33,912 nucleotides of DNA from the IMG/VR virus record IMGVR_UViG_3300005613_003639, positions 1-33,912 of that record; one strand, given 5' to 3'. Within the stretch, counting starts at the first letter, position 1; each line of letters starts with the position of its first letter. The notes under the pieces were generated by a model. The model did no database searches. It had not been told where the DNA came from and was given only the letters and a program-made list of their open reading frames with translations. The stretch is from a virus. Of this stretch, positions 3,056-33,623 are shown one piece after another. A program made the position numbers and the translations under genes.

Positions 3056-3223
3056 TCAATATATAAACAAATTTTCTTCGAAGGTTTCATATATCTTTTT
3101 CCAGGTTTTCTTTCTTGGTCGCATTTTACAAGCCTCCATAATTGCCTCATGAAGATTTTTTGCTTCTTTTTGCTTTAGAATAATAATCGCATCTCGATTT
3201 TTTTCATCTGTAAATATTCTCAT
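3056..3223 (-). CDS. small charged protein, 55 aa
   Basis: A 55-codon frame from ATG 3223 to TGA 3056. Its start overlaps the TGA of the recombinase gene as ATGA, and its stop overlaps the region of the exonuclease start, so it fills the gap between them exactly. The product is lysine-rich and helical (LHEAIMEACKMRPRKK). I do not recognise a family. Being fitted between two recombination genes suggests a small accessory DNA-binding protein. Confidence 0.6.
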   Translation of the reverse strand: MRIFTDEKNRDAIIILKQKEAKNLHEAIMEACKMRPRKKTWKKIYETFEENLFIY

Positions 3224-7995: not shown

Positions 7996-8016
7996 TATTT
8001 ATTCTTTCTTAATTAT

Positions 8017-8046
8017 ATTATATATTATAAATCTTAGTTTTATTAG
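8017..8046 (-). promoter_or_regulatory. phage promoter, CTAATA-N18-TATAAT
   Basis: CTAATA at 8046-8041 and TATAAT at 8022-8017 (minus strand), 18 bases apart, followed by an A-T-rich leader before the ATG at 7995. It would drive the clamp-loader, tRNA and SSB group. Part of the box lies beside the polymerase gene stop. Confidence 0.7.
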
Positions 8047-8048
8047 AG

Positions 8049-10676
8049 TTATTTTTTTCCATACCAATTTCCATCTATTTCGGTGAATTCTGATTCTACA
8101 TCAAGAGGAACAATTATCCAATCCCAATGCTCTCTAATTTTGTTGCACATTATATCCTGGGTTACTTCTAATACTTCCTCTTCCTCGTCAGGATAAATAT
8201 CCTCAATAACTTCATCATGAATCTGACCCACAGCTTTTGTTTTTGTTTTCTTAAAATACTTATCTAATTGGATGTATGACCATAACAAACAATGGAAAGC
8301 TGGACCTTGTATAGGAGTATTTAAGATCATATTATTAGATAGGTATCCTTGTCGTTTGAAACCAGTTATTAATTCAACATAACCTTTTTTCTGATATTCT
8401 ATTATAACTTTTTCTTTCCATTCTCGATAGTAGTGATACTTATCCCAGAATTTACCTTCCACATTCTTTACATGGTTTTCAAAATCTTTATATGTTGTTA
8501 TTCCTTTACTTTCCAAATGTTCTACCACAGAAATTTTATCATTGGTTTCTAACCCAAAACAGGTTTCGGCTAAACTTTCAGCACATGCCTTATACCAACT
8601 CCCATAAAACTCAGGAAACACAAACTGATTCTTTGCATAAAATCTAATCTCTTTATTGACTTGCTTATCATTAAGAAGAAATAATTCCATTGCTTCATCT
8701 CGATGCATATCGGATGTAGAATCTTTAATATAAGCGATTAGGACTGGATCTTTGGTTATGCAGGCTGCGATCTTAACTTCAATACCCCCATAATCATGAA
8801 AACCCAATTTATTTCCTGGAGATGGTTTTATCCCTCTACGAACCATCTTTTTAGCCAGTTCATCTCTTCTGGGTATTTGCTGAAAATCAGAAGATGATCT
8901 ATAAGTACGAGGTATATGTAAGTCGAAAAATGGATGTAGTTTACCATTTACAATTTCTCTGATAAATTTTACTATATAAGTATTTTTTATTTTAAATAAT
9001 TTCCTCCTCTTTATTATCCGGTTTGTGAAAGGAGTATCAATTTTGATTAATGTCTCATGATCAACAGCAGCTACTTTAGCTTTGGCTGTTAGTTTGGTTG
9101 GTTTTAATTTCATTATATCAAACAATAAAGTTCTCAAATCTTTGGTGGAAATGTCTCTATCTATTTTTAATGGTTCACCTGTTTTCTTTTCAAATAGTTT
9201 CGCCTCTTTTCCTTTTAAGATTTTGCTTTCTATTTTTTGGATATCCTCGGTTAATATTTTTTCTTGTTCAATAAAATACTTTTTGTCAGCACAGATCCCA
9301 AGATGTTGAGAATTACTAAGCGCAATCAACCCATTTTTAAAGAAAGTAGAGGCTTTTCGTCTCTCATCCTTCTGTTTAGAAAAAAATTTTTGTTGATCAT
9401 AATATAATTTTTCACCTATTCGAGAATCCAAAGCATTGTATCTTAACAATTGATCTAAAGGCATTTCATCTAAGCTATTGAATGGAGTACCTGGTTTGGT
9501 TTTAAGATATTTTTTGAATTCTTTATCATATCCTTCTATTCCATAATTGATATATGCCTGGAATTTTAGCTCGGTAAAATTTGGTCTATCATCTATTATA
9601 TGGGCATCATTCATAGTACAAGTTGCCCATCCAACTGTATTAACTCCGAATATTTCCTTGCCCCACATATCCTCGAATTTTAAATTATGAGCTACTTTTT
9701 TAATTTTTGGATTTTTTAATATTCTAATCCATAGAGATTTTATTAGGCGTTTTGCTCCTTTACTCCATGTGAGGTATTTACTGTCTTGTGGGTAATCATA
9801 AGGAAAAGCCGTTCCATTGACTGATATAGCCCAAACTTTATGTCGATCCACCCAGAATTTGGGTAGGTATGGTTTAAGTGCAGATGTTTCATAATCAAAT
9901 TCAATTAGAGGTTTTTCTTTGATTATTTTTTTTAGAAAATCAATAATATCTTGAGCATCATATAAACAGGTTATCTGAGATTCAAAATCTATAAATTCAG
10001 GAGGTTTTCTTTTTAATTTCTTTACAGCCCATTCTAAATCCCTATCATATGTAGATTCTAAATTTTTATCACGTTCATTTCTTAATAAATATGATGGGTG
10101 GTATAAAGGAATAACCCAAACACCTATTTTCTTATCTGGTATACAAAGCTTCCGCCATCTTGTTATACCCAAGTTGGAGAATCGGTCCATATAAAAAGAT
10201 TCAATAGCAGATCCTCCTAACAACCAAATGAATTCTGGTTTTAATTCTTCTATAGTTTTAGTAAGGTTTTCTCTGCAACATTTTAATTGTTTTTTAGTTG
10301 GTTTTTTATTGCCTTTTGGATGGCAAATAAGTGCATTTGTTTTCCAACAGTCTTGGTCCAAACTAATGTCATGAGCTTTTAATTTTCTTCTCAGTAATTT
10401 ACCAGCTTTGCCAATAAACTGTGTAGGTTCATCATATCCTAATTCTTCCCAGTTTTCATCTTCGTCTCTTCCGGGGGATTCTCCAATAATAAGGATTTTC
10501 TTTTCACCTCCCCCTGTATACCTCATCTTTGGAGATTTACACTTTTTGTATAAACCACAGATTTCACAAGGATCTTTAGGAGCTTGAGGAGATGATCTTC
10601 GCACGGAAGATTTTTCTCTTATGATAATTGCCTTTTGTAAAATATTTTTCTTAGTGTAAAAACCTATTTGTTTCAT
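8049..10676 (-). CDS. family A DNA polymerase fused to an N-terminal uracil-DNA glycosylase-like domain
   Basis: 875 residues. At about 35-225 lies a family-4-type UDG domain: CEIC at about 37-40, LIIGESPGRDED, TQFIGKAGKLLRRKL, LICHPKGNKKP and a later cysteine pair (QLKCC) able to complete an iron-sulfur site, then PLYHPSYLL. At about 240-420 a 3'-5' exonuclease shows EFDYETSA (DxE), VAHNLKFEDMW and YNALDSRIGE. The polymerase follows: motif A HDYGGIEVKIAA, motif B RFYAKNQFVFPEFYGSWY, motif C QIHDEVIED. All catalytic residues are present. There is no 5' nuclease, which is encoded separately at 2178-3044. UDG-like N-termini are known on some phage PolA enzymes of the SPO1 kind; whether this one excises or only senses uracil is unknown. 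Confidence 0.92.
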   Translation of the reverse strand: MKQIGFYTKKNILQKAIIIREKSSVRRSSPQAPKDPCEICGLYKKCKSPKMRYTGGGEKKILIIGESPGRDEDENWEELGYDEPTQFIGKAGKLLRRKLKAHDISLDQDCWKTNALICHPKGNKKPTKKQLKCCRENLTKTIEELKPEFIWLLGGSAIESFYMDRFSNLGITRWRKLCIPDKKIGVWVIPLYHPSYLLRNERDKNLESTYDRDLEWAVKKLKRKPPEFIDFESQITCLYDAQDIIDFLKKIIKEKPLIEFDYETSALKPYLPKFWVDRHKVWAISVNGTAFPYDYPQDSKYLTWSKGAKRLIKSLWIRILKNPKIKKVAHNLKFEDMWGKEIFGVNTVGWATCTMNDAHIIDDRPNFTELKFQAYINYGIEGYDKEFKKYLKTKPGTPFNSLDEMPLDQLLRYNALDSRIGEKLYYDQQKFFSKQKDERRKASTFFKNGLIALSNSQHLGICADKKYFIEQEKILTEDIQKIESKILKGKEAKLFEKKTGEPLKIDRDISTKDLRTLLFDIMKLKPTKLTAKAKVAAVDHETLIKIDTPFTNRIIKRRKLFKIKNTYIVKFIREIVNGKLHPFFDLHIPRTYRSSSDFQQIPRRDELAKKMVRRGIKPSPGNKLGFHDYGGIEVKIAACITKDPVLIAYIKDSTSDMHRDEAMELFLLNDKQVNKEIRFYAKNQFVFPEFYGSWYKACAESLAETCFGLETNDKISVVEHLESKGITTYKDFENHVKNVEGKFWDKYHYYREWKEKVIIEYQKKGYVELITGFKRQGYLSNNMILNTPIQGPAFHCLLWSYIQLDKYFKKTKTKAVGQIHDEVIEDIYPDEEEEVLEVTQDIMCNKIREHWDWIIVPLDVESEFTEIDGNWYGKK

Positions 10677-11725: not shown

Positions 11726-11882
11726 GATTCAATTCCTCGTTTATAAAATTTTCTAAAAGTTTAGGATCGGAATCTTTTATATCCCTTAAACGGAAGTAGG
11801 ATAAAAGAATGTTTTTAGTGTTGGCTTTGTCTCCGATTTCTACAAAAGATCTCTCCATCGATGTAGCTAAGAATATTTTCAT
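11697..11882 (-). CDS. DpdA N-terminal-module-like protein, 61 aa (displaced or truncated paralogue)
   Basis: Its ATG overlaps the dpdA stop as ATGA. The sequence MKIFLATS...NILLSYFRLRD has the shape of the first strand and the 'I-S-x-x-R-L-R' strand that precede the DSGAF motif in full-length phage DpdA proteins. The neighbouring DpdA begins directly at FLDSGAYSA and lacks those strands. This frame therefore looks like the missing N-terminal piece moved downstream, or the remnant of a second DpdA. After about residue 45 it ends in a charged tail. It overlaps the clamp gene by 29 bases. The similarity is from memory of family patterns, so confidence in function is moderate. Confidence 0.5.
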   Translation of the reverse strand: MKIFLATSMERSFVEIGDKANTKNILLSYFRLRDIKDSDPKLLENFINEELNHDNKDQRTF

Positions 11883-12754
11883 TTTCTTTTCCTCATAAAG
11901 TAAGTTTGTTCTCTTTTATATTTCCACGGCCACTTAGGCATTGCTGACTCTAAATCTTGGTAATATAGAGCATTTAAAATAGAACGTTGTATGTAATTAT
12001 TACATAAGCCCTCCTCAACTACAACTTCTTCCACTATAGTATCACCATTTTCATCTATTCTTTCTTTAGTGGTGGATTTGCCAATTTTAAATCCTTTCAT
12101 ATCAAAATAATTTTTTATTTGTTCCTGCTTCTTTTTTGTGTAGGTATTAAAATGTTTTCCCACTTGCTTAATTAATGGAGACCGGATAGAAAGGAACACT
12201 CTTAATGCTCGCAATTTTCTTGTCTTTGATTCGTAGTGAACATATTTTCCATCTTTCCAGATGGGGATCAATACACCACCAAACCTTGCAGTCTGAATCC
12301 AAGAAGTACTATCTGCAGAAAACCATGGATATCGAGGAAGGAGAACAATAGAAGTAATACCAAAGGCATGAACTTTTACTTTTGGGTACCCTTCAGAATC
12401 CACTAGATATCTGGACCAGAGTCTGTCCAAATAATCTCTCTGAACTTGTATAGTTTGTCCAGTACCCGCCACTCCTCCAATAGCTATATAATCAGATTTC
12501 TCGATATATTTTTTAAGGAATTCCACAGGTGATCCTACATGAAATACAGGAAGAGGATCTACCCCTTTTGATTTCATATACTCCCAGTTTTTATAACTGG
12601 CTTCTGCATTTCCTATTACATCAAGATTAGCATATACGTATAACGATTTTTTGGTTTTCTTTATATAATTTATGTAATTATCAATATTTATTTCTGCGTT
12701 CTGAGTCATAGCTGAATATGCCCCAGAATCTAGAAATATGTTTCTTTTTCTCAT
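11879..12754 (-). CDS. dpdA: DpdA, DNA guanine transglycosylase (7-deazaguanine insertion)
   Basis: 291 residues with the pattern of the TGT-related DpdA family: FLDSGAYSAM at residues 7-16, a central YVYANLDVIGN, VFHVGSPVEFLKKYI, YIAIGGVAGTG, VHAFGITS, and WFSADSTSW. The Asp in LDSGAY and the Asp in SADSTSW correspond to the two catalytic aspartates expected of these base-exchange enzymes. The protein would replace guanine in phage DNA by a preformed 7-deazaguanine, protecting it from restriction. It starts inside the Gat-QueC stop (ATGA overlap), so the two are coupled. It begins unusually close to the DSGAY motif; the usual first strands are absent here and similar sequence is in the next gene. 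Confidence 0.85.
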   Translation of the reverse strand: MRKRNIFLDSGAYSAMTQNAEINIDNYINYIKKTKKSLYVYANLDVIGNAEASYKNWEYMKSKGVDPLPVFHVGSPVEFLKKYIEKSDYIAIGGVAGTGQTIQVQRDYLDRLWSRYLVDSEGYPKVKVHAFGITSIVLLPRYPWFSADSTSWIQTARFGGVLIPIWKDGKYVHYESKTRKLRALRVFLSIRSPLIKQVGKHFNTYTKKKQEQIKNYFDMKGFKIGKSTTKERIDENGDTIVEEVVVEEGLCNNYIQRSILNALYYQDLESAMPKWPWKYKREQTYFMRKRK

Positions 12755-14103
12755 TTTACTAGCCCCAAAAGTTTTTGTATCTTGTATTGTTTAGGATTTG
12801 TCCATGGATAAGGATCTAGTTTTTGATCAAGGTAAGTTTGAGAATCTGTTAAACCCGCTCTTTTAAAAGCATATCTTCTAGTGGTACAACATCCACAAAC
12901 TCCACAGGGACGGGAAAATCCTTGGTCACATGACCAGGTTTTATCATAAGGAACTTGTAAATATGTTCCAATATGGAGAATTTCGGGTTTCATTACTCTT
13001 CCAAGAACCCGTTTTATTTTTACCCCTTTCAATGTTCCATAATCTAACAATTCGTTGTAGAGGTAAATAAATTCCAAATCGTTATCGGAATAGCCAGTAG
13101 CTTCTTCTTCCATATTGTTACCATAATAAATCCACTTTATTCCTTTGGCTTCGGCAAAAGCCGCAGCATAAGCTATCATTAACATATTTCTTGCCGGAGT
13201 CCAACATAAGGTACTTTCTACTGATAGCATTCCCAAGGGAAGATTGATGGAAGAATCTGTCAGAGGACTGGATCCCCACTTTCCAAGATTTGTTAAATCT
13301 ACAAATTCTGCGGGGACTTTTAGATCTTTAGATATATTTTCAACAGCCTCTTTTTCCTTGTTATTTGATAACTGCCCATAATCAAAATGAATTAAAGTTA
13401 GATCATGTCCATATATCTTTTTACCAATATATGCTGATGTAGTTGAGTCAATACCCCCACTAATTACCACAACTGATTTATTTGGGTCGAGATCAGGTGT
13501 TGATGACCAGAATTTTCTTTTAATTTTTTTGGTTTTAGCAATTCCAGAATGATTGAATGTTACTTTATAGTTTTGGGGAAACCGTCTTGGATAATTCTCA
13601 GTAAATATGTGATCGGAATCTTGAAATATAAGAAATTCCTTCTCTGAGGCAAAAAGAAAATAATCCTTTGTTTTTACGAACCATAAAGTTTTAAAGTTTT
13701 TAGCTATAGTTAATAAATCACTCTTTTTATTGTATACTCCAAAGGCAAAACCCCCAACAAATTCTTCACAGCACTTCCAGCCCAATATAGCCCAAAGATT
13801 AATTGCTGTATAGGTATCTACTTCTTTAAATGGTAAGTTATATTTTTCTATTAAGTCTCGATCATTAGATAACGTTCCATTATATACCATAACTAAATTA
13901 TGTTCTTGTAGTGGAAGTGGTATGTCATCAGCCTCTGGGAGGGGTTGTGCTCTAGAAACCCCTATATATCCCCACCCCCATTCATATCTTCCGTGACCAT
14001 CTCGTCCTCTTAGTCGAGATGTTTGTTCTAATCGAGGTTTGTACTTATTTATAAAGATCTTTCCCCTGTGGGAGAAAGCTGCCGCTCCGTATATACCACA
14101 CAT
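12751..14103 (-). CDS. Gat-QueC: class II glutamine amidotransferase fused to QueC PP-loop domain
   Basis: 450 residues. After the initiator Met comes CGIYGAAAF: Cys2 is the N-terminal nucleophile of class II amidotransferases, and VMVYNGTLSND is the matching glutamine-site segment. From about residue 205 a QueC-type PP-loop domain follows: VVVISGGIDSTTS, HFDYGQLSNNKE, TPARNMLMIAYAAAFAEA, and a zinc site CGVCGCC near 410. Gat-QueC proteins are known in Crenarchaeota and in phages such as 9g, where they turn preQ0 or its precursor into the archaeosine base using glutamine-derived ammonia. Here it is followed by dpdA with a 4-base overlap, which links base synthesis to insertion. Confidence 0.9.
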   Translation of the reverse strand: MCGIYGAAAFSHRGKIFINKYKPRLEQTSRLRGRDGHGRYEWGWGYIGVSRAQPLPEADDIPLPLQEHNLVMVYNGTLSNDRDLIEKYNLPFKEVDTYTAINLWAILGWKCCEEFVGGFAFGVYNKKSDLLTIAKNFKTLWFVKTKDYFLFASEKEFLIFQDSDHIFTENYPRRFPQNYKVTFNHSGIAKTKKIKRKFWSSTPDLDPNKSVVVISGGIDSTTSAYIGKKIYGHDLTLIHFDYGQLSNNKEKEAVENISKDLKVPAEFVDLTNLGKWGSSPLTDSSINLPLGMLSVESTLCWTPARNMLMIAYAAAFAEAKGIKWIYYGNNMEEEATGYSDNDLEFIYLYNELLDYGTLKGVKIKRVLGRVMKPEILHIGTYLQVPYDKTWSCDQGFSRPCGVCGCCTTRRYAFKRAGLTDSQTYLDQKLDPYPWTNPKQYKIQKLLGLVK

Positions 14104-14114
14104 AATAATAACCT

Positions 14115-15065
14115 CTATACAAAAGGATTAACTATATTACCAAGATACACCTGTTCAGCAATATAAGTACAATTCCATACACACCCATTACAGTTTTTCA
14201 CTTCCTCTCTGATGTTATTAATCATAGAATCTATGTTAAAAAATGGATCGTTAATATTGATTCCAGTTTTACCAATGTAGTCCATACACGCCCATATCTT
14301 TCCATCTGCATCAATAGCAGGGTTGGTGCCCGTTTTGCACTTCCAAAGTTTTTTATCATTAGCTCGATCAATAGCAAACTTTAGATATTCTAAAGGGTCA
14401 GCGAAGGTTGTTTTAATAGAAGGGTAGTTTTCAATAAGGTAAAGAATAAAATCTTTGGTTTTATTACCCACAACTTCCATCTCTGGGATATTTCCTGAAG
14501 GATTTGATAATCCCCTGCTTTCTTGGTTGTAACTCTGCATAACACAGAATACCCATTTACAGTTAAACCCCTCTGCAAAATTGAGAACATCATACATTTC
14601 TTCTACAACACAGTCTCTCAAAACAGATACAAGAACAATCTCCCCTTTGTACTTAAGAGTTTGGCGAAGATACAATACAAGATCCTTAGCTGCTTCACTT
14701 TTGACTATATCAGAAGAACGTTTTTTGTTTTTAGTGTTATGATAATCCATCGACAAAGAAATGGATGACAATCCTTTATTAACTAGTTTTTTGTAAACTT
14801 CTCGTTTTGAAGTACTATTTGTAACCAAAGAATAAACGGCATCAATATCTTCCATGTAATGAATTATATCTTCTATTCCAGGGTATAAAGTAGGTTCACC
14901 ACCTATGATGTTGTAGAAGGCTGTATGAGGAGTAATAATATCCAAAGCTTTTTTCCATTCTTCGATACGCATCTCTGGAACTTTATTTGAACGGACTCCA
15001 CAGTAGTGACATGCCAAATTACATCTCCTTGTAATATAAAGCGACATAAATTGAAATAGTTTCAT
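14115..15065 (-). CDS. radical-SAM enzyme with SPASM/twitch-like C-terminus (1)
   Basis: 316 residues. The CxxxCxxC iron-sulfur motif is in YITRRCNLACHYCGV at about residues 10-24, followed by NIIGGEPTLYPG, the SAM-binding GGEP motif. The C-terminal third carries further cysteines (WKCKTG; WACMDY; CNGCVWNC) typical of an auxiliary cluster domain. It is not the QueE of this locus, which is at 18828-19487. It lies between Gat-QueC (11 bases away) and a second similar enzyme. A role in modifying the deazaguanine base or another substrate is inferred from position only. Confidence 0.8.
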   Translation of the reverse strand: MKLFQFMSLYITRRCNLACHYCGVRSNKVPEMRIEEWKKALDIITPHTAFYNIIGGEPTLYPGIEDIIHYMEDIDAVYSLVTNSTSKREVYKKLVNKGLSSISLSMDYHNTKNKKRSSDIVKSEAAKDLVLYLRQTLKYKGEIVLVSVLRDCVVEEMYDVLNFAEGFNCKWVFCVMQSYNQESRGLSNPSGNIPEMEVVGNKTKDFILYLIENYPSIKTTFADPLEYLKFAIDRANDKKLWKCKTGTNPAIDADGKIWACMDYIGKTGININDPFFNIDSMINNIREEVKNCNGCVWNCTYIAEQVYLGNIVNPFV

Positions 15066-15078
15066 ATTTTATCTCCTC

Positions 15079-16047
15079 CTAATATTTGTGTACATAGTTG
15101 TCAAAAGAAGAATACCCTTTCTTTATCAACCAAGCATCATAATGTGTGGTCCAAAAACATCCTGGACATTTACTTTTAATCTCTTTTCGATAAAACCCAG
15201 TGAAATCTGAGAAGGCCTTTTCATCTAGATTCCATACTTTCCATTGTCTACTTGTATAGAAATCATCACATGGAAGGACTGTTCCATCTGCGTCTATGGT
15301 TATCCAACTTGGAAATTCTTGGTTGGAACAGTTCCATTGAAATTTGGAAACAATATTGGGATTTTCAACCATGTACTGAAGAAGTGGGTTTGATGGGTGG
15401 ATTTTGAATCCTTGGGATTTATAAGATTGTATCCCTTTACAAAATGCCTTTACCCCATTTGGTTTCATTAAAAGATTTAATGCATCTCCTCTACATTTAG
15501 TTCCAGACTGCTTTCGATCAGGATGGATAAAATCGAAACTGAACCATATTTTTTTATCAATTACTTTCTTCAGATTTTGTAGTATATCTTTATAGTTTTG
15601 AGAGGTAACTGTAGCAACGATTTCCACATCCCTAATGTTTGGGAGAGAGTTGAACCAATGTACTAAAGGTAAGGCTTTTTCTGTTTTAGTTTTAGAATCA
15701 TTATCATACGCGACGAAATCATAACTAACTGTTAAAGATCGTAACCCATGATGATATAGTTTTTCAATTTTTTCTTTGCTGTTAGAAACTATACCATCGG
15801 TTATTATTGTGGTTAAAATTCCTAAATCTTCTGCTGTTTTTATATATTCGGGAAGTCCTTCGAAGTCGTGCAAAGGAGATGCTCCGTAGATTGCTATGAA
15901 TCGACAATCTAAATTTTTCAACCGGTGTAAACCTTCTATCATTTTGTAAGTAGGCGCACGAGGAATTGGTTGTTTCATCGCACAAAAAGAACAATTCAAA
16001 GGACACTTACGAGTCCATAAGATTTCTGCTTTTGTTAAATTAGCCAT
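15079..16047 (-). CDS. radical-SAM enzyme with SPASM/twitch-like C-terminus (2)
   Basis: 322 residues. CxxxCxxC occurs in WTRKCPLNCSFCAMK at about 12-26. The GGEP position reads AIYGASPLHDFEG, so the usual GGE is altered to G-A-S. The C-terminal part includes WITIDADGTVLPCDDF and KCPGCFW, matching the DADG...C / C-x-x-C layout of its neighbour, so the two are probably diverged paralogues. It overlaps the QueC-like gene by 13 bases and precedes radical-SAM gene 1 by 13 bases. The substrate is unknown. Tight packing with QueC-type genes is the main clue. Confidence 0.8.
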   Translation of the reverse strand: MANLTKAEILWTRKCPLNCSFCAMKQPIPRAPTYKMIEGLHRLKNLDCRFIAIYGASPLHDFEGLPEYIKTAEDLGILTTIITDGIVSNSKEKIEKLYHHGLRSLTVSYDFVAYDNDSKTKTEKALPLVHWFNSLPNIRDVEIVATVTSQNYKDILQNLKKVIDKKIWFSFDFIHPDRKQSGTKCRGDALNLLMKPNGVKAFCKGIQSYKSQGFKIHPSNPLLQYMVENPNIVSKFQWNCSNQEFPSWITIDADGTVLPCDDFYTSRQWKVWNLDEKAFSDFTGFYRKEIKSKCPGCFWTTHYDAWLIKKGYSSFDNYVHKY

Positions 16048-16679
16048 TGTCTCATCCTGTCCTGTCGTTCTATAGGATACTTATGCAATCGGTTAAGGTA
16101 ATAGATTTTAATTTCCTCTTGCAATTCATATCCAGGGTGAATATTATTATTCATCAAAGCTACATACCTTCGAAAACAAGAACCACAATTACCACAATGT
16201 CCTTCTTCAGAGCTGAAGCATCCAACCGTTGACAAAAGTCCTTTAACATCATTTATATTCTTTACAAACCATCCCACCATCTCTGTTTTATCCATGTGAC
16301 AGAATGGGGAAGAAACTTTTACCTCTCTTTCTGCTAAGAAGGTCAACAATTTAGAAGATGAAGAAAAAAACTCGTGAGATCGATCTGGTATAGACATCTC
16401 GTCTTTTTGCACGATCATCCATACTTTTGAAGCCCCTTCATTAACTGCTAACATAGAAAGATATAAGTTCCTTAGAGGTATGTTAGCGTCATCTTCTTCG
16501 TATTTGCCAATGGTGGACATTTCCATAATTTTAGTTTTTGGGATTGTCTTTATTACGGCCTCAAATTCTTTAAATCTATATCTATGCCCAAGATTTGCAA
16601 ACAAAGTTTTCGGTTTTCTTAAATAATGCCATGCTATATAACTGTCCATCCCTCCACTATAGAGCAATATCTCTTTCAT
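16035..16679 (-). CDS. queC: QueC-like PP-loop ATPase (7-cyano-7-deazaguanine synthase or paralogue)
   Basis: 214 residues, near the normal QueC length. ILLYSGGMDSYIA at 4-16 is the PP-loop. IPLRNLYLSMLAVNEGA corresponds to the conserved P-x-R-N helix of QueC, PDRSHEFF to its substrate segment, and VGCFSSEEGHCGNCGSCFRRY to the four-cysteine zinc site. QueC converts 7-carboxy-7-deazaguanine to preQ0 with ATP and ammonia. A separate Gat-QueC is also encoded, so this gene may make preQ0 while Gat-QueC continues to the amidine, or it may have taken another substrate. Divergence from typical QueC, including a short lysine-poor loop after SGGMDS, leaves that open. Confidence 0.75.
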   Translation of the reverse strand: MKEILLYSGGMDSYIAWHYLRKPKTLFANLGHRYRFKEFEAVIKTIPKTKIMEMSTIGKYEEDDANIPLRNLYLSMLAVNEGASKVWMIVQKDEMSIPDRSHEFFSSSSKLLTFLAEREVKVSSPFCHMDKTEMVGWFVKNINDVKGLLSTVGCFSSEEGHCGNCGSCFRRYVALMNNNIHPGYELQEEIKIYYLNRLHKYPIERQDRMRQWLI

Positions 16680-17103
16680 TACCCCTCCTTTGGTATTTTA
16701 ACATATAAAGCGGGGTGGGCTTTCCAAGTGGTTTGGTAAACTGGATACCTTTTTTGTATTCAAATCCCTGACTAATACAATAACGTTCTATATCAACATT
16801 GTGTATTGACCCATACAATTTTTTAACACTCTTATTTTTGTTTTTAGCCTCTTTTGGAATATAAACTACTTGTGATTCTGGATCAATGTAAAATATAATT
16901 CTTTCTGGATCTCCGTTTACTTCTCTTACTACAAACCCCACCCCGGTTCTTTCTTTTGGAAATACATTTTGTCTTGTAAAAACGATACCCGTATCCTTTT
17001 TTAACTTCATAGTGCTATGGTTGGGTAGAAGGCCTTCTTCTTTTTTTGTCCATCCTTTTGGAAAAATATCTAATTTTTTGTATTTTACTTTTTTGTTTTG
17101 CAC
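16657..17103 (-). CDS. hypothetical protein, 148 aa, in the modification cluster
   Basis: 148 residues, basic, rich in beta-type segments (GVGFVVREVNGDPERIIFYI; QVVYIPKEAKNKNK). It overlaps the QueC-like gene by 23 bases, so it is translated with it. No catalytic motif is recognised. It could be a small DNA- or nucleotide-binding accessory of the cluster, but nothing in the sequence proves this. Confidence 0.6.
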   Translation of the reverse strand: MQNKKVKYKKLDIFPKGWTKKEEGLLPNHSTMKLKKDTGIVFTRQNVFPKERTGVGFVVREVNGDPERIIFYIDPESQVVYIPKEAKNKNKSVKKLYGSIHNVDIERYCISQGFEYKKGIQFTKPLGKPTPLYMLKYQRRGNERDIAL

Positions 17104-17125
17104 TTTAACCTCCTATTTTACCTTC

Positions 17126-17428
17126 TCACTCTCTATTATTGGTAAAACCATCTAAAGATTCAAAGCTTGAGACTGCCTTATCATCTATATAAATATCCGC
17201 TTGGGGTTTACCCATAAATAAGGGGGCTATTGGAAAATTATGTAATCTCAACCATCTCTCTGTGATGATCCTGTCTATCTCTGGTCTCGAGGTGAAGTAA
17301 ATTATAGAATGGGTTTTGGATAAATGGTTAACTTTTTCTACCACCCCTGAAAGAGGTAGGGCTTCAGAATATTTTGTATGCCCCACCTCTTCACATAAGG
17401 TCCCATCAATATCGAAGCAAATAATCAT
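17126..17428 (-). CDS. small HAD-superfamily phosphatase
   Basis: 100 residues. Motif I is CFDIDGTLCEE (residues 4-14, both catalytic Asp present), motif II YFTSRPE, and the acidic motif IV region DIYIDDKAV. There is no cap domain, so it is a minimal HAD hydrolase. It starts in an ATGA overlap with the gene upstream. Such enzymes dephosphorylate nucleotides or small phosphates. In this cluster it could act on pterin or deazaguanine intermediates, for example dihydroneopterin triphosphate by-products, but that is inference. Confidence 0.78.
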   Translation of the reverse strand: MIICFDIDGTLCEEVGHTKYSEALPLSGVVEKVNHLSKTHSIIYFTSRPEIDRIITERWLRLHNFPIAPLFMGKPQADIYIDDKAVSSFESLDGFTNNRE

Positions 17429-18099
17429 TCATTCATTCCTACTAATTGTAAGGTATTCTCCTCCACTAAGAAAACACCTAATTCTTTAGCATCAATTGCA
17501 GTTGTAGATTTACCATCAACTGTTCTTGTTCGGGTCTTCCAATGCTCCTTTTTAAAAATCCAACCTCTTTTTTCTCTATCTTTTATATGAGCAAGGATTT
17601 TCTTTTCTGAACAATTGGCATAATCTTTTATTCCTCTTTTTTCCACCTCTTCACTTACTTTCTCACAAAGATTGTCCATAGAGATTTTCTTGAGGAGCAA
17701 GGCGTCTACGAAGGATGTCATCATTGTATCTTTCGTTTTCTCGATTTTACTGGTCAGATTTTCAAAAGCATCTCCACTCAGATCTTGAGGGGCTCCCTTC
17801 TCTTTCTTCTCTTCCTTTTCTTTCTTCTCTTCCTCAACCGTTTCTTCCTCAACTTCTTCTTCCGGTTTTCCGATAAGCTCTTCGAGGTGCTCTTCCCAAA
17901 AGTCAATACAATCTTCGGGGGTCTCATCAATCAGTTCAGCATCATCAAGGGCCAGCATTATCCTTTTGAAATTTTCCTGCATCTCTTCGAGCTTGGTCCC
18001 TTTTCCAACGACTGGGATCTTTTCTTCTTCGATTTTTTCCAAAAGGTCTGTTTCTTTGTTTAGCACTTTTACAATTCTCATCAAGTCTTTTCTTTCCAT
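17425..18099 (-). CDS. acidic coiled-coil protein carrying the recombinase-derived 28-residue module
   Basis: 224 residues from the ATG at 18099, preceded by AAAGGAGAGTAAAA; an in-frame ATG at 18135 has no such site. Residues 85-115 are a Glu/Lys run, and the rest looks helical. Near the C-terminus 28 residues (KEHWKTRTRT to ELGVFL) are identical to part of the RecA-like recombinase and encoded by an exact 85-bp repeat. The last 15 residues then differ. The first 190 residues match nothing I recognise. Acquisition of the segment by recombination is likely; a shared binding surface is possible. Confidence 0.7.
   Translation of the reverse strand: MERKDLMRIVKVLNKETDLLEKIEEEKIPVVGKGTKLEEMQENFKRIMLALDDAELIDETPEDCIDFWEEHLEELIGKPEEEVEEETVEEEKKEKEEKKEKGAPQDLSGDAFENLTSKIEKTKDTMMTSFVDALLLKKISMDNLCEKVSEEVEKRGIKDYANCSEKKILAHIKDREKRGWIFKKEHWKTRTRTVDGKSTTAIDAKELGVFLVEENTLQLVGMNE
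17467..17551 (-). repeat. 85-bp exact repeat, copy 2 (in the 224-aa gene)
   Basis: Exact partner of 3349-3433, 14,118 bases away, in the same reading frame. Here it forms nearly the C-terminal end of an otherwise unrelated protein. Confidence 0.93.
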
Positions 18100-18169
18100 T
18101 TTTACTCTCCTTTTAGTTTTTAGTTTTTCATTCATTGATTTTTATAATTTAGTTACTATCTCCTCCTTT

Positions 18170-18757
18170 CTATTCTTTAATTAATGATATAAGTTCTTCT
18201 TTTGCTTGATTACCACCTTCTAAAAAGCATCCTTTTAAAGATGATGTTACCATTACTGAGTTTTGTTTTTGAACTCCTCTCATTCTCATGCATAAATGTT
18301 GTGCTTCTATTATACAAGCAGCTCCTTGAGGTTTTAAATGTTCCATAAGAGCGGAAGTGATTTGATCACCTATTCTCTCTTGAATCTGTAGTCTTCTTGA
18401 ATACATTTCAACCAATCTGGCTAACTTTGATATTCCAATAATTTTATCATTGGGAATATAAGCCACATGAGCCTGTCCCGTAAAAGGGATGCAATGGTGC
18501 TCGCACATCGAATATAATTCAATATTTTTAAGGAGAATAATTTGATTATAACCATCACTATCGAAAGTGGTCATAATATCTTCAACCTTTTGATTATAGC
18601 CCGAGAACAGAAATTGCCATGCTTTGATGAACCGTTTTGGGGTATCTATTAATCCTTCTCTTGTTGGATTTTCACCAATAAATTCAATTAATCTCCTAAC
18701 ATTTGCTTCTTCTGGCATTTCATTATCAGCTGGTGAATAATACTTTTTTAATTTCAT
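18170..18757 (-). CDS. folE: GTP cyclohydrolase I (FolE)
   Basis: 195 residues, the usual FolE core length. Visible motifs: [19 protein letters not shown], the zinc and active-site [40 protein letters not shown], and [19 protein letters not shown]. These include the Cys-His-Cys zinc ligands and the histidine pair needed for ring opening. The enzyme makes dihydroneopterin triphosphate from GTP, the first step of preQ0 synthesis. It is the first gene after the promoter at 18792-18821. Phages carrying their own folE next to queD and queE use it for DNA deazaguanine modification. Confidence 0.96.
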
Positions 18758-18791
18758 GTCGTAAATACTTCCTTCCTTTATTCTTAATTGT

Positions 18792-18821
18792 ATTATATAG
18801 TATAAAATCGATTTTTATTAG
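18792..18821 (-). promoter_or_regulatory. phage promoter, CTAATA-N18-TATAAT
   Basis: CTAATA at 18821-18816 and TATAAT at 18797-18792 on the minus strand with 18 bases between. It begins 7 bases after the queE stop and should drive folE and the genes after it. The flank AAAATACTAATAAAAA is also found at the 27969 promoter. Confidence 0.75.
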
Positions 18822-18827
18822 TATTTT

Positions 18828-19487
18828 TTACAAAACATCTAAAATTTTATGAATTTGAACGTTGATAATAGCATCGAAAACTTTATCTTGAATCAACCAA
18901 TCTACTATAGGCATACGATTCTCAAGGGTTCTACAAGGACCAAATACTGGGCTGAAAGCAAACTTAGCATGACAACCATCACTTTGTAAATAGTTCTTTT
19001 CTCTGATTGCTGTTCGATAATCGTTCTTATCTGTGATTACAAATTTCACAAAGTCAGAAGAATTTAAACCAACGAATAGTTTATGATCCATTTTATCGTA
19101 ATTACCCGATCCTGGTAATTTGAAATCCGTTACCCAACTACCAACTCCATATCCTTCCAGTGGTAAAGAACCATTGGTTTCTACAGATGTATTAAATCCA
19201 GAATGATATAATTTCTTTGTAAGCTCATAAAATTCCTTCATTTGAAATAATGGTTCACCTCCTGTTATAGTTATTTTATGTCCTCCAAGTTTGGAAACAA
19301 TATCGATAATTTCTTTCACCTCCATTTCTTTACCACTATTAGGATCTGCGGCATATTTGGTGTCGCAGTACAGACAAGGATTTTTCCAGAAATTACATCC
19401 AGCTACTCGGATGAACGTTGTTATACATCCTTGATGAAAATAGTTCACTTCTCCGTCAATTGATTGAAATATCTCATAGATTTTCAT
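18828..19487 (-). CDS. queE: QueE, 7-carboxy-7-deazaguanine synthase (radical SAM)
   Basis: 219 residues. It starts IYEIFQSIDGEV, the QueE opening. The iron-sulfur motif is RVAGCNFWKNPCLYCDTKYA with a six-residue first spacer (C-x6-C-x2-C) in place of the usual CxxxCxxC; variant spacing is known in QueE. ITGGEPLFQ follows. TDFKLPGSG and SPVFGP mark the substrate half. It converts 6-carboxytetrahydropterin to 7-carboxy-7-deazaguanine. I use the ATG at 19487 because AGGAGGTGATC, a full anti-SD match, lies upstream; a GTG at 19499 falls inside that site. It precedes folE. Confidence 0.93.
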   Translation of the reverse strand: MKIYEIFQSIDGEVNYFHQGCITTFIRVAGCNFWKNPCLYCDTKYAADPNSGKEMEVKEIIDIVSKLGGHKITITGGEPLFQMKEFYELTKKLYHSGFNTSVETNGSLPLEGYGVGSWVTDFKLPGSGNYDKMDHKLFVGLNSSDFVKFVITDKNDYRTAIREKNYLQSDGCHAKFAFSPVFGPCRTLENRMPIVDWLIQDKVFDAIINVQIHKILDVL

Positions 19488-19495
19488 TAAAGGGA

Positions 19496-19681
19496 TCACC
19501 TCCTATTTATTGGGGATAAATCAATTGTCATTTCATCTGATTCTAAACACAACTCTCTATATCCATCATGATCCTCTTGAGCTTCCTTAATCGACTCAAG
19601 GTCACCCATTTCTTTTGCTTTTGCAAGTGTTCTAGCTTTATTACAAAGTACGCTGAAGTTTGTAACAATTTTCAATGCCAT
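19496..19681 (-). CDS. hypothetical protein, 61 aa
   Basis: 61 residues, charged and helical (ARTLAKAKEMGDLESIKEAQ), ending in a TGA that overlaps the queE Shine-Dalgarno region, so it is probably coupled with queE. Family not recognised. Confidence 0.55.
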   Translation of the reverse strand: MALKIVTNFSVLCNKARTLAKAKEMGDLESIKEAQEDHDGYRELCLESDEMTIDLSPINRR

Positions 19682-19783
19682 TTCATCTCTTTTCTTTTTA
19701 TAGGTTCGATTTTGATCTCATATCCTATTACTTCTAAACTATATTTAACATTTTCTGCTTCAGATAATGTTAAACATCTTCGA

Positions 19784-19963
19784 TCAATCCTTTTTAATTC
19801 TAATCATCGGAACATCTTTCCCCCACCATTTTCTTGCTGCTTTTTTGCTTTCAAAAGCAAAACAAATCCCTATACATCCTTCTGGTAATTTTAAATTTGT
19901 GTGGGTTCCTTGTATGGACACCTCTCCGGGATGTAGTTTTAAAGCAATAACCGGTTGTTTCAT
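19784..19963 (-). CDS. small protein, 59 aa, probably continued in another frame
   Basis: Starts in an ATGA overlap with the queD stop (ATG at 19963). The product is beta-rich (LHPGEVSIQGTHTNLKLPEG) and ends ESKKAARKWWGKDVP...KKD. Just before the TGA at 19784, another frame opens and continues to 19676 with a protein-like sequence (CLTLSEAENVKYSLEVIGYE) but no start codon. A one-base shift at AAAAAGGATTG would join the two into about 95 residues. The motif ARKWWG is shared with the protein at 28574-28936. Function unknown. Confidence 0.6.
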   Translation of the reverse strand: MKQPVIALKLHPGEVSIQGTHTNLKLPEGCIGICFAFESKKAARKWWGKDVPMIRIKKD

Positions 19964-20379
19964 TTTCTTATCCATTTCGCACAAGAATTCTCAGTCTCCC
20001 ATAAGAGAAGTTCTGTTAATTTTACTCCTTCTGGAAGTACTGAATTTGAATTAATGAAAATTGCTATATACTGAACTATGTTTTCAGCCGTTGGGTTTGA
20101 GAAGACATCATTTAGATATCTATGATCAAATTGATTGATAATATGCTTTGATACTATTTTTTTAAGTTGCCCGAAATCCATAACCATCCCACTGTTCGGA
20201 CCATATCCTTCGGGTTTTATAGGACCTTCAACTTCTACAGATAATTTGTAGCTATGACCATGCTGGGATTTACAAACTCCTTGATGATAAGGCAGATGGT
20301 GTCCCGCCTCAAACCGAAATGTTTTTTTCACTCTTATAATTCCTCCACTATATAATATCACTTCATTTTCTCTGGCCAT
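19960..20379 (-). CDS. queD: QueD, 6-carboxy-5,6,7,8-tetrahydropterin synthase
   Basis: 139 residues, the normal QueD/PTPS length. Motifs: KTFRFEAGHHLPYH, GVCKSQHGHSYKLSVEVEG (catalytic Cys and the HGH zinc ligands), GMVMDFGQLKK, FDHRYLND, PTAENIVQYI, and LLLWET with the substrate-binding Glu. It turns dihydroneopterin triphosphate into 6-carboxytetrahydropterin, the QueE substrate. ATG at 20379 follows GGAGGATTTCA. It is upstream of queE and folE, so the three early steps are in order queD-queE-folE, with two small genes in between. Confidence 0.95.
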   Translation of the reverse strand: MARENEVILYSGGIIRVKKTFRFEAGHHLPYHQGVCKSQHGHSYKLSVEVEGPIKPEGYGPNSGMVMDFGQLKKIVSKHIINQFDHRYLNDVFSNPTAENIVQYIAIFINSNSVLPEGVKLTELLLWETENSCAKWIRK

Positions 20380-22482: not shown

Positions 22483-22490
22483 ATTTTATC

Positions 22491-22561
22491 TATACCCTTA
22501 TATACCTTTCTAAAAGATCTCCTTGTATACTCGGTCTCAGGCCGGTTAAAATTGATTTTTA
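22491..22561 (-). repeat. 71-bp dispersed repeat, copy 2
   Basis: 70 of 71 bases equal to 2123-2193. It fills the leader between the promoter at 22587-22615 and the helicase ATG at 22482. The AAGGAGATC in it lies too far from the ATG to be that gene's ribosome site, so another function is likely. Confidence 0.9.
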
Positions 22562-27928: not shown

Positions 27929-28019
27929 TTTATTAGTATTTTTTAAAAGCAGAACTCTTTTTTTTATTATTATATAATATTTTTTGCCTTTTTATTAGTA
28001 TTTTTTAAAAGCAGAACTC
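27929..28019 (-). repeat. 29-bp direct repeat pair flanking a promoter
   Basis: 27929-27957 and 27991-28019 are identical over 29 bases. Each contains the CTAATA box and, in the upstream copy, the last codons and stop of the 140-aa gene. Only the copy at 27991 has a TATAAT at the right spacing. Confidence 0.9.
27969..27998 (-). promoter_or_regulatory. phage promoter, CTAATA-N18-TATAAT
   Basis: CTAATA at 27998-27993 and TATAAT at 27974-27969 on the minus strand, 18 apart. It serves the gene at 27659-27910 and the UvsW-like helicase after it. Confidence 0.75.
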
Positions 28020-30023: not shown

Positions 30024-31823
30024 TCATTCCCCCTCTGTTAAAAGTTTTCTTGCTTCTGATTGTACCTTTTTGGCCATACTTGGAGTAACCACATTCAGTA
30101 ATTTTTTCTTGTTTCTAAGATTTGCTACATCGGCAATTGTCTTGAATCCAAGGTCCCATAGTTTCCTTGCCCTAACCCCCCCAATGCCGGGTACTTTAAC
30201 TAATTCAACCATCTCATTAGGAATACCATATTTGATTCGGGTGGGTAAGATTTTCCAGAAATTTTCTTTACCCCATTTGGTGTATATATCATCAATTAAT
30301 CTAAATGCTTGAACTTGTCTATCAATATCATAGATGATTGTTCGTTTAAATGAGTCAAAAGATTGATCATTAATTCCATTCAAACAATTATATGCTCCTA
30401 CAACAGAAGGACAGGCTTGAGTAACGTGAATGTTTCTGTTTTTAAGTAACCATTTCCAATCATTACATACAGGAACTAAGTCTTTTCTGATATAACCAAG
30501 ATCATTGGAAGGAATATCAGCAATGGCCCAAGCAAGAATTTCATCAGACATCTCGCAATTAAAAATAACATTTAGGTTTCTGAACCATGCATATATATCG
30601 TAAGGGCTGAAATACAACCAGGCGCTAACTTTACCAAGTCCGGTAATGCTAAATCTTTGAATATCACCAGTTAACATTTCCATTTTAATAAGGTCAGTAA
30701 TTAATCCTTCTGCATCTCTTTTATCAAATGGGGTGATGTTCTGCATTCCAGCAAGGCTTTTCTTATACCAAGCAAGTAAAGAACCCACACTATTAATAAT
30801 TCTATTCTCAACTTCCGCCAGTACATGAAAGGCCAAGATATGTCTATTATTCAGAACTGAATTAACAGGTCTTGGATTCTTAAAAATCTCTTGCCATCTG
30901 GTAGTAGAAGTTTCTGGGATAATAAGATAAACAAAACCAGCATCATCTATTCCGTATCTTCCAGCCCTCCCTGCACATTGTATAATGTCGAGTTCGTCAA
31001 CTTCAGTTAATCCACGATGTACTCCTACTATGATAACGTTTCTGGCTGGAAGATTAACTCCCATCGCTAATGTTGAGGTAGAAACTAATACTCTTATGCC
31101 ATTGTTTTGATCTTGAAAAGAGTTTTCAATATCTGATCGATCTTTCAAAGGTAGATCAGCATTATGGAAAACAGTATTCTCTCCTTCCTTCTCAAATCGT
31201 TTTACTATATCACGACCAGTTCCCTTATCATGACAAAAAATTAAAAACTTTTCGTTAGGTTTTGTTAAAGCAATATCTACTGCTTTTTGTCGCTTCCTTT
31301 CTTGAGATGCCCAATAATCTTCCCAACCATTTCTCATTGTAGTTACTTCATATTCTTCATAATTGATTTGAAGTTCTACTGGTCTCCAATTAGAATAAAT
31401 AATTCTTGGGTCCTTTCCATTTAGAGACGTTAACCATTTACCAAGTTCATTTACATTTGGCATAGTCGCACTAAGAAATAGAATTTTTGCTTTATTGTTA
31501 ATAGAAGTAAATCTTATGATTCCCGTCTCTATAGCATGTCCGCGAGAAGTTGTTAGTAAATGAGCTTCATCAACTATTAATAACCCAATATTATGAAGCC
31601 AGTAGTTTCGTTCCGATTTCATTTTTCTAGTTCTGGAATCAACCATCTCACTTGTGCAAAGGATAATATCTGCTTTTGATAGTTCTTTTTGTTTTGTTTT
31701 GGTTAAATAGTAATCTCCTGTCAAAACACTTATTTTTTTATCTGGATATCGTTTTAACCATTCTCGATGTTTTTCTTCCGTTAAAGCCTTCATAGGACTC
31801 ATGTATAAAATTTTATTTCTCAT
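30024..31823 (-). CDS. Ski2/Hel308-like SF2 helicase, C-terminal piece of a split gene
   Basis: 599 residues from the ATG at 31823, overlapping the endonuclease stop as ATGA with a long purine run upstream. It begins exactly where motif Ia should (KILYMSPMKALTEEK), then II LIVDEAHLLT, III LFLSATMPN, SNWRPVEL, V VLVSTSTLAMGVNLPAR, and VI QCAGRAGRYG. The C-terminal part has the Hel308 order: winged helix, helical ratchet and a helix-hairpin-helix (VKVPGIGGVRARKLW). It lacks motif I, which is on the separate protein at 32736-33623. Together they would form one helicase acting at stalled forks. No residue appears to be missing at the join. Confidence 0.88.
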   Translation of the reverse strand: MRNKILYMSPMKALTEEKHREWLKRYPDKKISVLTGDYYLTKTKQKELSKADIILCTSEMVDSRTRKMKSERNYWLHNIGLLIVDEAHLLTTSRGHAIETGIIRFTSINNKAKILFLSATMPNVNELGKWLTSLNGKDPRIIYSNWRPVELQINYEEYEVTTMRNGWEDYWASQERKRQKAVDIALTKPNEKFLIFCHDKGTGRDIVKRFEKEGENTVFHNADLPLKDRSDIENSFQDQNNGIRVLVSTSTLAMGVNLPARNVIIVGVHRGLTEVDELDIIQCAGRAGRYGIDDAGFVYLIIPETSTTRWQEIFKNPRPVNSVLNNRHILAFHVLAEVENRIINSVGSLLAWYKKSLAGMQNITPFDKRDAEGLITDLIKMEMLTGDIQRFSITGLGKVSAWLYFSPYDIYAWFRNLNVIFNCEMSDEILAWAIADIPSNDLGYIRKDLVPVCNDWKWLLKNRNIHVTQACPSVVGAYNCLNGINDQSFDSFKRTIIYDIDRQVQAFRLIDDIYTKWGKENFWKILPTRIKYGIPNEMVELVKVPGIGGVRARKLWDLGFKTIADVANLRNKKKLLNVVTPSMAKKVQSEARKLLTEGE

Positions 31824-32659
31824 TCCCTTTCCTTCTCCTCCCTCCTTATTTTTTTCTTTAATATACATTGGGCTAAGGTATATACTAAACTGGCTTCTTT
31901 TTCAGTACCTTTTACAAAAGGAAATCGATAAATAGACCATCCTAAGGATTCTAGATGAATATCTTTTTTTCTATCCTTTAGTTTTTGGTCAGGATGTAGA
32001 TGTTGAATACCATCTAATTCAATACCTATAAGTAAATCCCTTCTACCAAAATCTATTGAATATGTTCCCTTCATCCCTTTAGGAGTAGGTTGCTCTATCT
32101 CTTTTTCAAAACCAAGCGGAATTAATTTTTTTCCTACTAATAACTCAAACCGACTACTTTTACTATGATGTCCTATCGTTTTCCATGGGGTTTTTTCTTT
32201 CATTTGATGACTTATTTTCTGCTTCCACTTTGAGTCATAACACGCTCCTTCTTTATGTAAAGTTTTTACTGTTCTTGATATTTTTTGTCTGGTTTCTTGT
32301 GTAATAATATTACCTTTTAGATTTTCAGATATTTTCTTTATTCGTAAATCTGTTTCTTTTGTTAAGTCTTTATTCCATGGTTTCATTCCGTTTTTGTATC
32401 GCTTTTTTAGAGTTTGGGATATTTTTTTAGGATTGTTTTTATTATGACCTAGTACCCATTCAGGCCATCCCAATCTTATTCCTTTCCAAGGACCTACTTC
32501 TTGGCCACAGCCACACTTGCATAAGGGTGTAGGTTTATGATGATTTAAATATTTAATAGCATAGTCTAAAGAACTCACCCCATGACTTATTCTTACATGT
32601 CGCCCTAATATAGTTATATCCATTTCTTTACTACATATTTCACATTTAATTTTTTTCAT
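31820..32659 (-). CDS. free-standing homing endonuclease, Vsr/EDxHD type
   Basis: 279 residues. A zinc-finger-like front (CEICSKEMDITILGRHVRIS) and CKCGCGQEVG are followed by NUMOD-like DNA-contact motifs (MKPWNKDLTKETDLRIKKIS; TRQKISRTVK). The C-terminal nuclease is SIDFGRRDLLIGIELDG, IQHLHPDQ, DRKKDIHLESLGWSIYRF, the E-D...H-x-D order of the Vsr-like EDxHD homing family, known from phage introns and from genes broken at conserved sites. The gene fills the whole interval between two helicase pieces and no intron core or intein half is visible. It is likely a mobile gene that cut an uninterrupted helicase gene. Confidence 0.82.
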   Translation of the reverse strand: MKKIKCEICSKEMDITILGRHVRISHGVSSLDYAIKYLNHHKPTPLCKCGCGQEVGPWKGIRLGWPEWVLGHNKNNPKKISQTLKKRYKNGMKPWNKDLTKETDLRIKKISENLKGNIITQETRQKISRTVKTLHKEGACYDSKWKQKISHQMKEKTPWKTIGHHSKSSRFELLVGKKLIPLGFEKEIEQPTPKGMKGTYSIDFGRRDLLIGIELDGIQHLHPDQKLKDRKKDIHLESLGWSIYRFPFVKGTEKEASLVYTLAQCILKKKIRREEKERE

Positions 32660-32673
32660 ACTTCCTCCTTTTT

Positions 32674-32709
32674 GTTAATATAGATATTAATATCTATATC
32701 TATATTAAC
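32674..32709. promoter_or_regulatory. nested inverted repeats in the endonuclease leader
   Basis: Arms 32674-32686 and 32697-32709 are perfect complements (13 bp). Within and across them, 32678-32699 is also a perfect 22-bp palindrome, so two alternative hairpins exist. They lie just upstream of the AAAAAGGAGGAAGT site of the homing endonuclease. Leader hairpins that limit translation are known for T4-phage homing endonucleases. Confidence 0.6.
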
Positions 32710-32735
32710 TTGCTCAAAAAATCAAGAAGTATTTT

Positions 32736-33623
32736 TTAAACTCCATATTTTAGTATATGATCCATTATCAGTTCGGCACAAATAGTTTTTCCACTACTTG
32801 TAGAGGAAGAAATAACCATATTCTTGTCCTCTTCAATATATTTCATAACTTCGCTCTGCACCGGATTAAAATTCTTGAAGGGGTATTTATGAGGTTTATA
32901 GGTTTTGGTTTTTATCAGGTTTTTGAGATCAACATTCTCTGGCGTATATTCTTTAACCTCTTCAATGACCTCTGGCTCTTCCTTCGCATTTTCTTCTGTA
33001 ATTCTTTCGTAGTTTTCAATTTCAGACTCTTCATCTTGATCTCCTTCCATATTGTCCAAATAATTTTGCAGGAAATTAGGATCTTTTTGCTTAGCCCTTG
33101 CTTCCATAGTTGGTTTACCTTTTGGATTTTTTCCTCTAGGTAAACCTTCATTACCAATGATATAAGCAAGCTGTCCATCGGTCAAGGAACCATAATCTTC
33201 GAGACTATTAAGGAGACTTTGGGCAAAATCCATCCAATTAACTGCATCTGAATTTAGGATGGCTTTGATATAACTATAATCAATTACATTTTGATTATAT
33301 GACTCCTTCATAAAATGATTTATTCGATCTTGAATCCTTTCCCCAATTGTGGTTTTACTTTCTACTCGATAAATTCTTTTTCCCTTACCAAATGGTCGAT
33401 CATTAATGATGTCCCAAAAGACAATCCTGACGGCATCAGCACCAATGTCTCTAGTTTTATTTGTTCTTGTATCCACCGAAGAATACACTCGGATACCGAC
33501 ATTTGCATTGTCCGTAGTTCCTTGGTAGATGTATTCTTTTGAGTGGGGATTCTGGAGCAGTTCGAATCCATCTGGGAGATAAGATTCGAACTGCTTCTTT
33601 TTTAAGACTACAAAATTTGACAT
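32736..33623 (-). CDS. Ski2/Hel308-like helicase, N-terminal piece with extra N-terminal domain
   Basis: 295 residues. About 130 residues at the front form an independent domain (LPDGFELLQNPHSKEYIY; NVGIRVYSSVDTRTNK; DAVRIVFWD) of a type I recall from phage and plasmid proteins without a firm function. An acidic linker (about 185-235) follows. The helicase begins at PFKNFNPVQSEVMKYI, the Q-like motif, then Walker A MVISSSTSSGKTICAELI, and stops at LKYGV. Motif Ia onward is on the protein at 30024-31823. The stop follows directly on the residue expected before the insert. ATG at 33623 has AAGGAGGTAAT. Confidence 0.85.
   Translation of the reverse strand: MSNFVVLKKKQFESYLPDGFELLQNPHSKEYIYQGTTDNANVGIRVYSSVDTRTNKTRDIGADAVRIVFWDIINDRPFGKGKRIYRVESKTTIGERIQDRINHFMKESYNQNVIDYSYIKAILNSDAVNWMDFAQSLLNSLEDYGSLTDGQLAYIIGNEGLPRGKNPKGKPTMEARAKQKDPNFLQNYLDNMEGDQDEESEIENYERITEENAKEEPEVIEEVKEYTPENVDLKNLIKTKTYKPHKYPFKNFNPVQSEVMKYIEEDKNMVISSSTSSGKTICAELIMDHILKYGV

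Follow-up and report, generated by a model that had tools for sequence, protein, structure and literature searches.

The split helicase gene and its insertion

The virus record IMGVR_UViG_3300005613_003639, 33,912 bases long, is referred to here as the window. On its minus strand we found a helicase-like gene broken once, giving an N chain, an endonuclease gene and a C chain (Table 1). The N chain ended in ...SSSTSSGKTICAELIMDHILKYGV, also written ...SSTSSGKTICAELIMDHILKYGV, followed by a TAA stop codon 15 codons past the GKT of Walker A (SSTSSGKT), and comprised an N-terminal domain (about residues 1-185), a variable linker and the beginning of RecA domain 1, including Walker A and the next helix. 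The C chain, with the N terminus MRNKILYMSPMKALTEEK..., began at motif Ia with an ATG at 31823-31821 and stopped at 30024, while the mechanically called reading frame opened further upstream, at 31868. This piece carried the rest of the Pfam DEAD profile together with Helicase_C and HHH_5, and the purine-rich, Shine-Dalgarno (SD)-like stretch AAGGAGGGAGGAGAAGGAAAGGGA lay directly before its start codon. The ATGA in which the endonuclease stop overlaps the C-chain start is, as sequence, consistent with coupled translation of the two genes. An earlier note, made by reading the sequence, had placed the end of the upstream piece right after Walker A and the start of the downstream piece at motif Ia, with its ATG within the endonuclease stop, and had put the insert at about 0.9 kb, all of which was confirmed. 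Since the window is a single metagenomic contig, the junction depends on its assembly.

Table 1. Features of the split helicase locus in the window
Feature	Position	Strand	Description
Helicase N chain	32736..33623	-	295 aa; Pfam DEAD profile positions 1-35
RNA hairpin between N-chain stop and endonuclease start	32658..32732	-	MFE -23.6 kcal/mol
Homing-endonuclease-like gene	31820..32659	-	279 aa
ATGA overlap, endonuclease TGA stop/C-chain ATG start	31820..31823	-	
Whole insertion relative to continuous relatives	31821..32738	-	918 nt
Helicase C chain	30024..31823	-	599 aa; motifs Ia to VI, C-terminal domains, helix-hairpin-helix

NCBIfam and PDB searches placed the helicase among the Ski2-like enzymes, with Hel308, Brr2 and ASCC3. 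The fold was read from an unsplit relative 54% identical to the window helicase (L192), for which the AlphaFold model had a mean pLDDT of 82 and Hel308 structures were the best structural matches; with the fold taken from this relative, motifs I-VI, the C-terminal domains and the fold of a Hel308/Ski2-like SF2 helicase were all present. The earlier label of a Hel308-like helicase thus holds at the level of Hel308/Ski2-like enzymes. The score against the NCBIfam Hel308 equivalog was 155 bits, far under the curated cut-off of 1200, and we therefore regard the protein as a Ski2-like relative and not as archaeal Hel308 itself or its orthologue. Compared with Hel308, Brr2 and ASCC3, the phage helicases are extended at the N terminus by a domain of about 185 residues. 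A 33% relative of this domain was present in a 484-kb phage (LR756508.1; L012 5001-5309) where the neighbourhood held no long helicase ORF, and the domain may therefore also exist as a separate small protein.

The endonuclease combined a Cys-rich N-terminal region, a NUMOD3-like middle and a Vsr/EDxHD-like nuclease at about residues 167-279, and its C-terminal part matched DUF559 and REase_MTES_1575 in Pfam. A profile built from four endonuclease sequences matched 3hrl, Vsr (1cw0) and I-Bth0305I (3r3p) in the PDB. In agreement with this, the top fold matches of the endonuclease-domain model (pLDDT 70-86 in most blocks) were the two chains of 3R3P, which is the catalytic domain of I-Bth0305I (best Foldseek E 3.3e-3, probability 1.00), so that profile and fold matches both bear out the earlier assignment to the Vsr/EDxHD group. 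E172, D203, E214 and D216 were conserved in the four-sequence alignment and are candidates for the EDxHD catalytic residues. The closest full-length relative was the endonuclease of L022, with 30% identity over the full length (E 8e-25).

The spacer between the N chain and the endonuclease gene measured 76 nt (32735..32660). The hairpin predicted there had a z score of -5.83, was matched in stability by 0/200 shuffled sequences, and pairs the endonuclease start codon and part of its Shine-Dalgarno sequence AGGAGGAAG. Hairpins that mask the ribosome-binding site (RBS) have been reported for I-TevI, segB and Aeh1 mobE (PMC2988022), and the one described here may delay or limit translation of the endonuclease.

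Elsewhere in the window, an exact 85-nt repeat (3349-3433 and 17467-17551) lay inside the RecA-like 3220-4374 and inside 17425-18135, encoding HWKTRTRTVDGKSTTAIDAKELGVFL in both. A 74-nt repeat, 97% identical between its copies (2120-2193 and 22488-22561), was mostly intergenic, as was a 43-nt AT-rich element found four times (897-939, 8016-8058, 18791-18833 and 27968-28010), whose copies are possibly phage promoters. Positions 11879-20379 held a 7-deazaguanine gene set with a glutamine-amidotransferase-QueC fusion and radical SAM proteins, to which QueD-, GTP cyclohydrolase- and DpdA-like genes were added by eye; this set suggests that the phage DNA is modified.

The junction in unsplit relatives and a second fracture at the same loop

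Alignment-based scans yielded about 100 viral helicase relatives, and in nearly all of them the gene was continuous across the window junction. Counted from GKT up to the proline of motif Ia, and leaving out the start Met, the window chains when joined have 24 residues, the same number as the unsplit L079 (24); other close unsplit relatives had 23 (L078) or 22 (L192 and L205). As the loop length equals that of L079, the join lacks no residues. The model of L192 has the post-Walker A helix at residues 277-290 and the strand of motif Ia at residues 294-299, which puts the cut in a loop of three residues. The gene order downstream of L192, in which the gene is unsplit, resembled that of the window. 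The earlier note had held that the two pieces, put end to end, give an uninterrupted helicase with no gap, and had proposed comparing the junction with that of an unsplit gene; in the unsplit relatives a single ORF runs through the site, their loop lengths agree with the joined chains, and no coding sequence was lost at the join. In further viral scans, no relative of the window exceeded about 54% identity across the full helicase, and a single-protein search of IMG/VR gave no match.

A second split at this loop was found in two metagenome records (L013 and L015) that share an identical 13.9-kb sequence, and here the gene was interrupted by another endonuclease. The L013 N chain ended in ...EEILRGGNR, its TGA stop overlapping the GTG of a 321-aa endonuclease, while the C chain (MTIKQETKKILYMAP) started at an ATG 11 nt short of where the endonuclease gene ends and was served by the SD AGGAG, so that the three genes overlap with zero noncoding nucleotides between them. 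L205, from the same metagenome as L015, was unsplit at the loop (...EECLLGNMKVLYTSP) and colinear with L013/L015, at 70-85% DNA identity overall and 73-75% in the helicase gene.

Both endonucleases were DUF559-like. Compared directly, they were similar over no more than a short Cys-rich stretch (E 1e-4 when just the two sequences were compared), and no similarity at E<=0.01 appeared in a further comparison, so that the proposal that they are one element was rejected. An earlier tree calculated without L205 weakly joined the window and L013 (79/65). Once L205 was included, L013 grouped with L205 with support of 100/100, and a tree forcing the window and L013 into one clade was rejected (p-AU 1.6e-51), which speaks against a common origin of the two splits. 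On these sequence comparisons, two independent fractures at the same loop would be the simplest reading; one ancestral split followed by repeated precise loss would need several losses plus an exchange of the endonuclease, and is not favoured.

Introns, inteins and the fate of the two chains

If the insertion were an intron of group I (or group II), either small or divergent, with the endonuclease ORF overlapping the ribozyme core, splicing would restore the helicase. The sequence offers some room for this, as T is the final base of the exon preceding the insert, a G is available to serve as the last intron base, and joining the chains minus the start Met keeps the frame and yields the natural loop length; moreover, the I-TevI ORF reaches into its intron core (PMC2988022). 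However, Rfam found neither group I nor group II introns at E<=10 in the window or the L013 insert, a blank that means no detectable intron and that a very divergent one could still produce, and crude core-motif searches returned nothing convincing. The space is also short: only 76 nt lie outside the window ORF, where the RBS hairpin occupies them, and in L013 the overlapping frames leave none, in line with the earlier remark that there is too little room for a group I core. The separate stops, SDs and start codons would, in addition, be superfluous in an intron. With no signal from Rfam at relaxed thresholds, from the motif search or from the space outside the ORFs, the intron was rejected, and we consider it very improbable.

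An equally slim chance attaches to a former split intein that would have brought the endonuclease and then lost its halves, leaving the chains separate. What speaks for such a history is that the closest full-length relative of the endonuclease, that of L022, is flanked by split-intein halves at motif V of the same helicase gene (L022 1093-4953). The window insertion site is, however, unlike that of L022, and models that detect the L022 half and contiguous inteins found no intein half at either window edge, so that intein halves were rejected there, as the earlier note had also concluded. In addition, L013 carries a bare homing endonuclease gene (HEG) at the same site, and among the relatives fetched none had an intein at the window's loop, the intein of L036 lying inside Walker A.

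Inteins occurred at several other places in the family: within Walker A (L036), at motif II (L070, L077 and L106) and at motif V (L063, L065-L067 and L069). Not all of them were profile-tested; for L066 the classification relied on just the continuous frame and the gap, and for L036 on a LAGLIDADG_3 match and the edges. In the motif II inteins of L070 (5354-6118), L077 (6542-7309) and L106 (5072-5953), a LAGLIDADG_2 endonuclease was encoded in the +1 frame and Intein_splicing matches lay in the host frame, which was open for ~250 codons versus ~16 stops expected (open in 0/5000 synonymous resamplings). The nearest precedent that we found is in phage methylases, where the ShiLan insertion carries an HNH gene out of frame (PMC11855218); unlike these three, that insertion has no intein domain. 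A same-family helicase on a Nitrospirae MAG contig (JADFXO010000068.1; L114 5536-8984) was split at motif V, its N fragment ending in STLAYGLNL and a stop, followed by a QueC-like gene (Pfam 2.8e-9), a 154-aa gene and then MARRVVILGVHRG. No intein half was seen at this split, which is a third, different non-intein split of the helicase family.

It could also be supposed that a recent HEG insertion broke the helicase and that the phage copes without it or carries another copy, an explanation that we judge unlikely. The split is rare in the clade (2/about 10 lineages), the GC3 of both endonuclease genes is lower than that of their host gene, so the insertions may be young, and the window encodes other helicases, UvsW-like and DnaB-like; as the record is only 33.9 kb long, a second intact copy may lie elsewhere in the genome. 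Against it, each chain is full length, has its motifs intact and contains no further stop, all helicase motifs are kept in the window and in L013, and both split genes have plausible SDs and start codons. At columns invariant in unsplit members, 8-9% were changed in the window and 5-6% in L013, within the range of 2-11% obtained at otherwise invariant columns when each unsplit member was left out in turn. L013 had also evolved no faster than L205 (9:9 in the N part and 21:35 in the C part). Two hits on the same loop point to a site at which a cut is tolerated, and the downstream gene order shared with the unsplit L192 likewise counts against a broken gene. Such conservation of sequence would fit continued constraint on both chains but, because the insertions may be young, does not prove it.

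A fractured helicase and its place among known split genes

Taken together, the fracture itself is well supported, and we consider it quite probable that a bare HEG, with neither intron nor intein, fractured the helicase gene and that the chains assemble into a working helicase; within this, the assembly and the helicase activity of the two chains are what we infer from sequence. The HEG would have inserted where a short loop links the post-Walker A helix to the strand of motif Ia, supplying a stop codon upstream and, downstream, an SD-like sequence and the ATG overlapping its own stop. Translation would then give two polypeptides, an N chain with the P-loop strand and its helix and a C chain with motifs Ia-VI, which may associate non-covalently so that the N chain provides the central P-loop strand of RecA domain 1. 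The endonuclease presumably cuts uninterrupted copies of the gene and spreads by repair, and the insertion would protect its own target. It also seems reasonably likely that an SF2 RecA-like core is formed here from two chains, one with Walker A and the other with motifs Ia-VI, and is kept so without splicing, the loop having been fractured independently twice, by different endonucleases, as a permissive site.

To our knowledge, very few enzymes are encoded by phage genes split by bare homing endonucleases. In the literature searched we did not find described a helicase as the host gene, a cut between motifs I and Ia, or a repeat of the event at one loop. The cut runs through the ATPase core and separates the P-loop from all other motifs, where a working two-chain motor is unexpected. 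Two events at one loop and the intact L205 cousin provide an empty-site comparison and natural pairs of split and unsplit enzymes. Should the two-chain enzyme prove to work, Ski2-like helicases would have a natural split point in this loop, and the case would probe the limits to which selfish genes can break up important enzymes.

The window helicase resembles Hel308, Brr2 and ASCC3 in sequence and fold across the motor and the C-terminal region, although these are single chains and it is encoded as two. The I-Bth0305I catalytic domain is the best PDB match of the endonuclease fold, but I-Bth0305I is intron-encoded, whereas the window endonuclease is found in a split gene and differs in its DNA-binding parts. 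Fractured genes with split inteins, together with a new HEG family, were reportedly described by Dassa et al. in 2009. These likewise have a HEG between two halves, a layout that L022 shows in this very helicase family; they carry intein halves, however, and the window has none, so that its chains cannot be ligated in that way.

Closer parallels are found among two-chain enzymes. In T4, mobA adjoins gene 60 of the two-chain topoisomerase (genes 39/60), and the split gene 43 DNA polymerase of Aeromonas phage 25 yields chains that co-purify and are active (PMC2988022); these are other genes, and the phage 25 HEG may have invaded a gene that was already split. In Aeh1, mobE divides nrdA into two chains that are active (PMC2988022). 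There, as in the window, a free-standing HEG without intein or intron cuts an enzyme gene in two and has its RBS in a hairpin, while the Aeh1 host gene encodes a ribonucleotide reductase and its nuclease is HNH, and activity was shown for Aeh1, the window being known from sequence. The window shares with this type a single ORF at the join in continuous homologues, no loss of coding sequence and no detectable intein or intron. The likeness to fractured phage genes and to Aeh1 nrdA that had been proposed earlier is therefore upheld in anatomy, in the bare HEG and the RBS hairpin, and by that anatomy the window would fit the Aeh1 nrdA kind, its two chains probably being active together as those of Aeh1 are.
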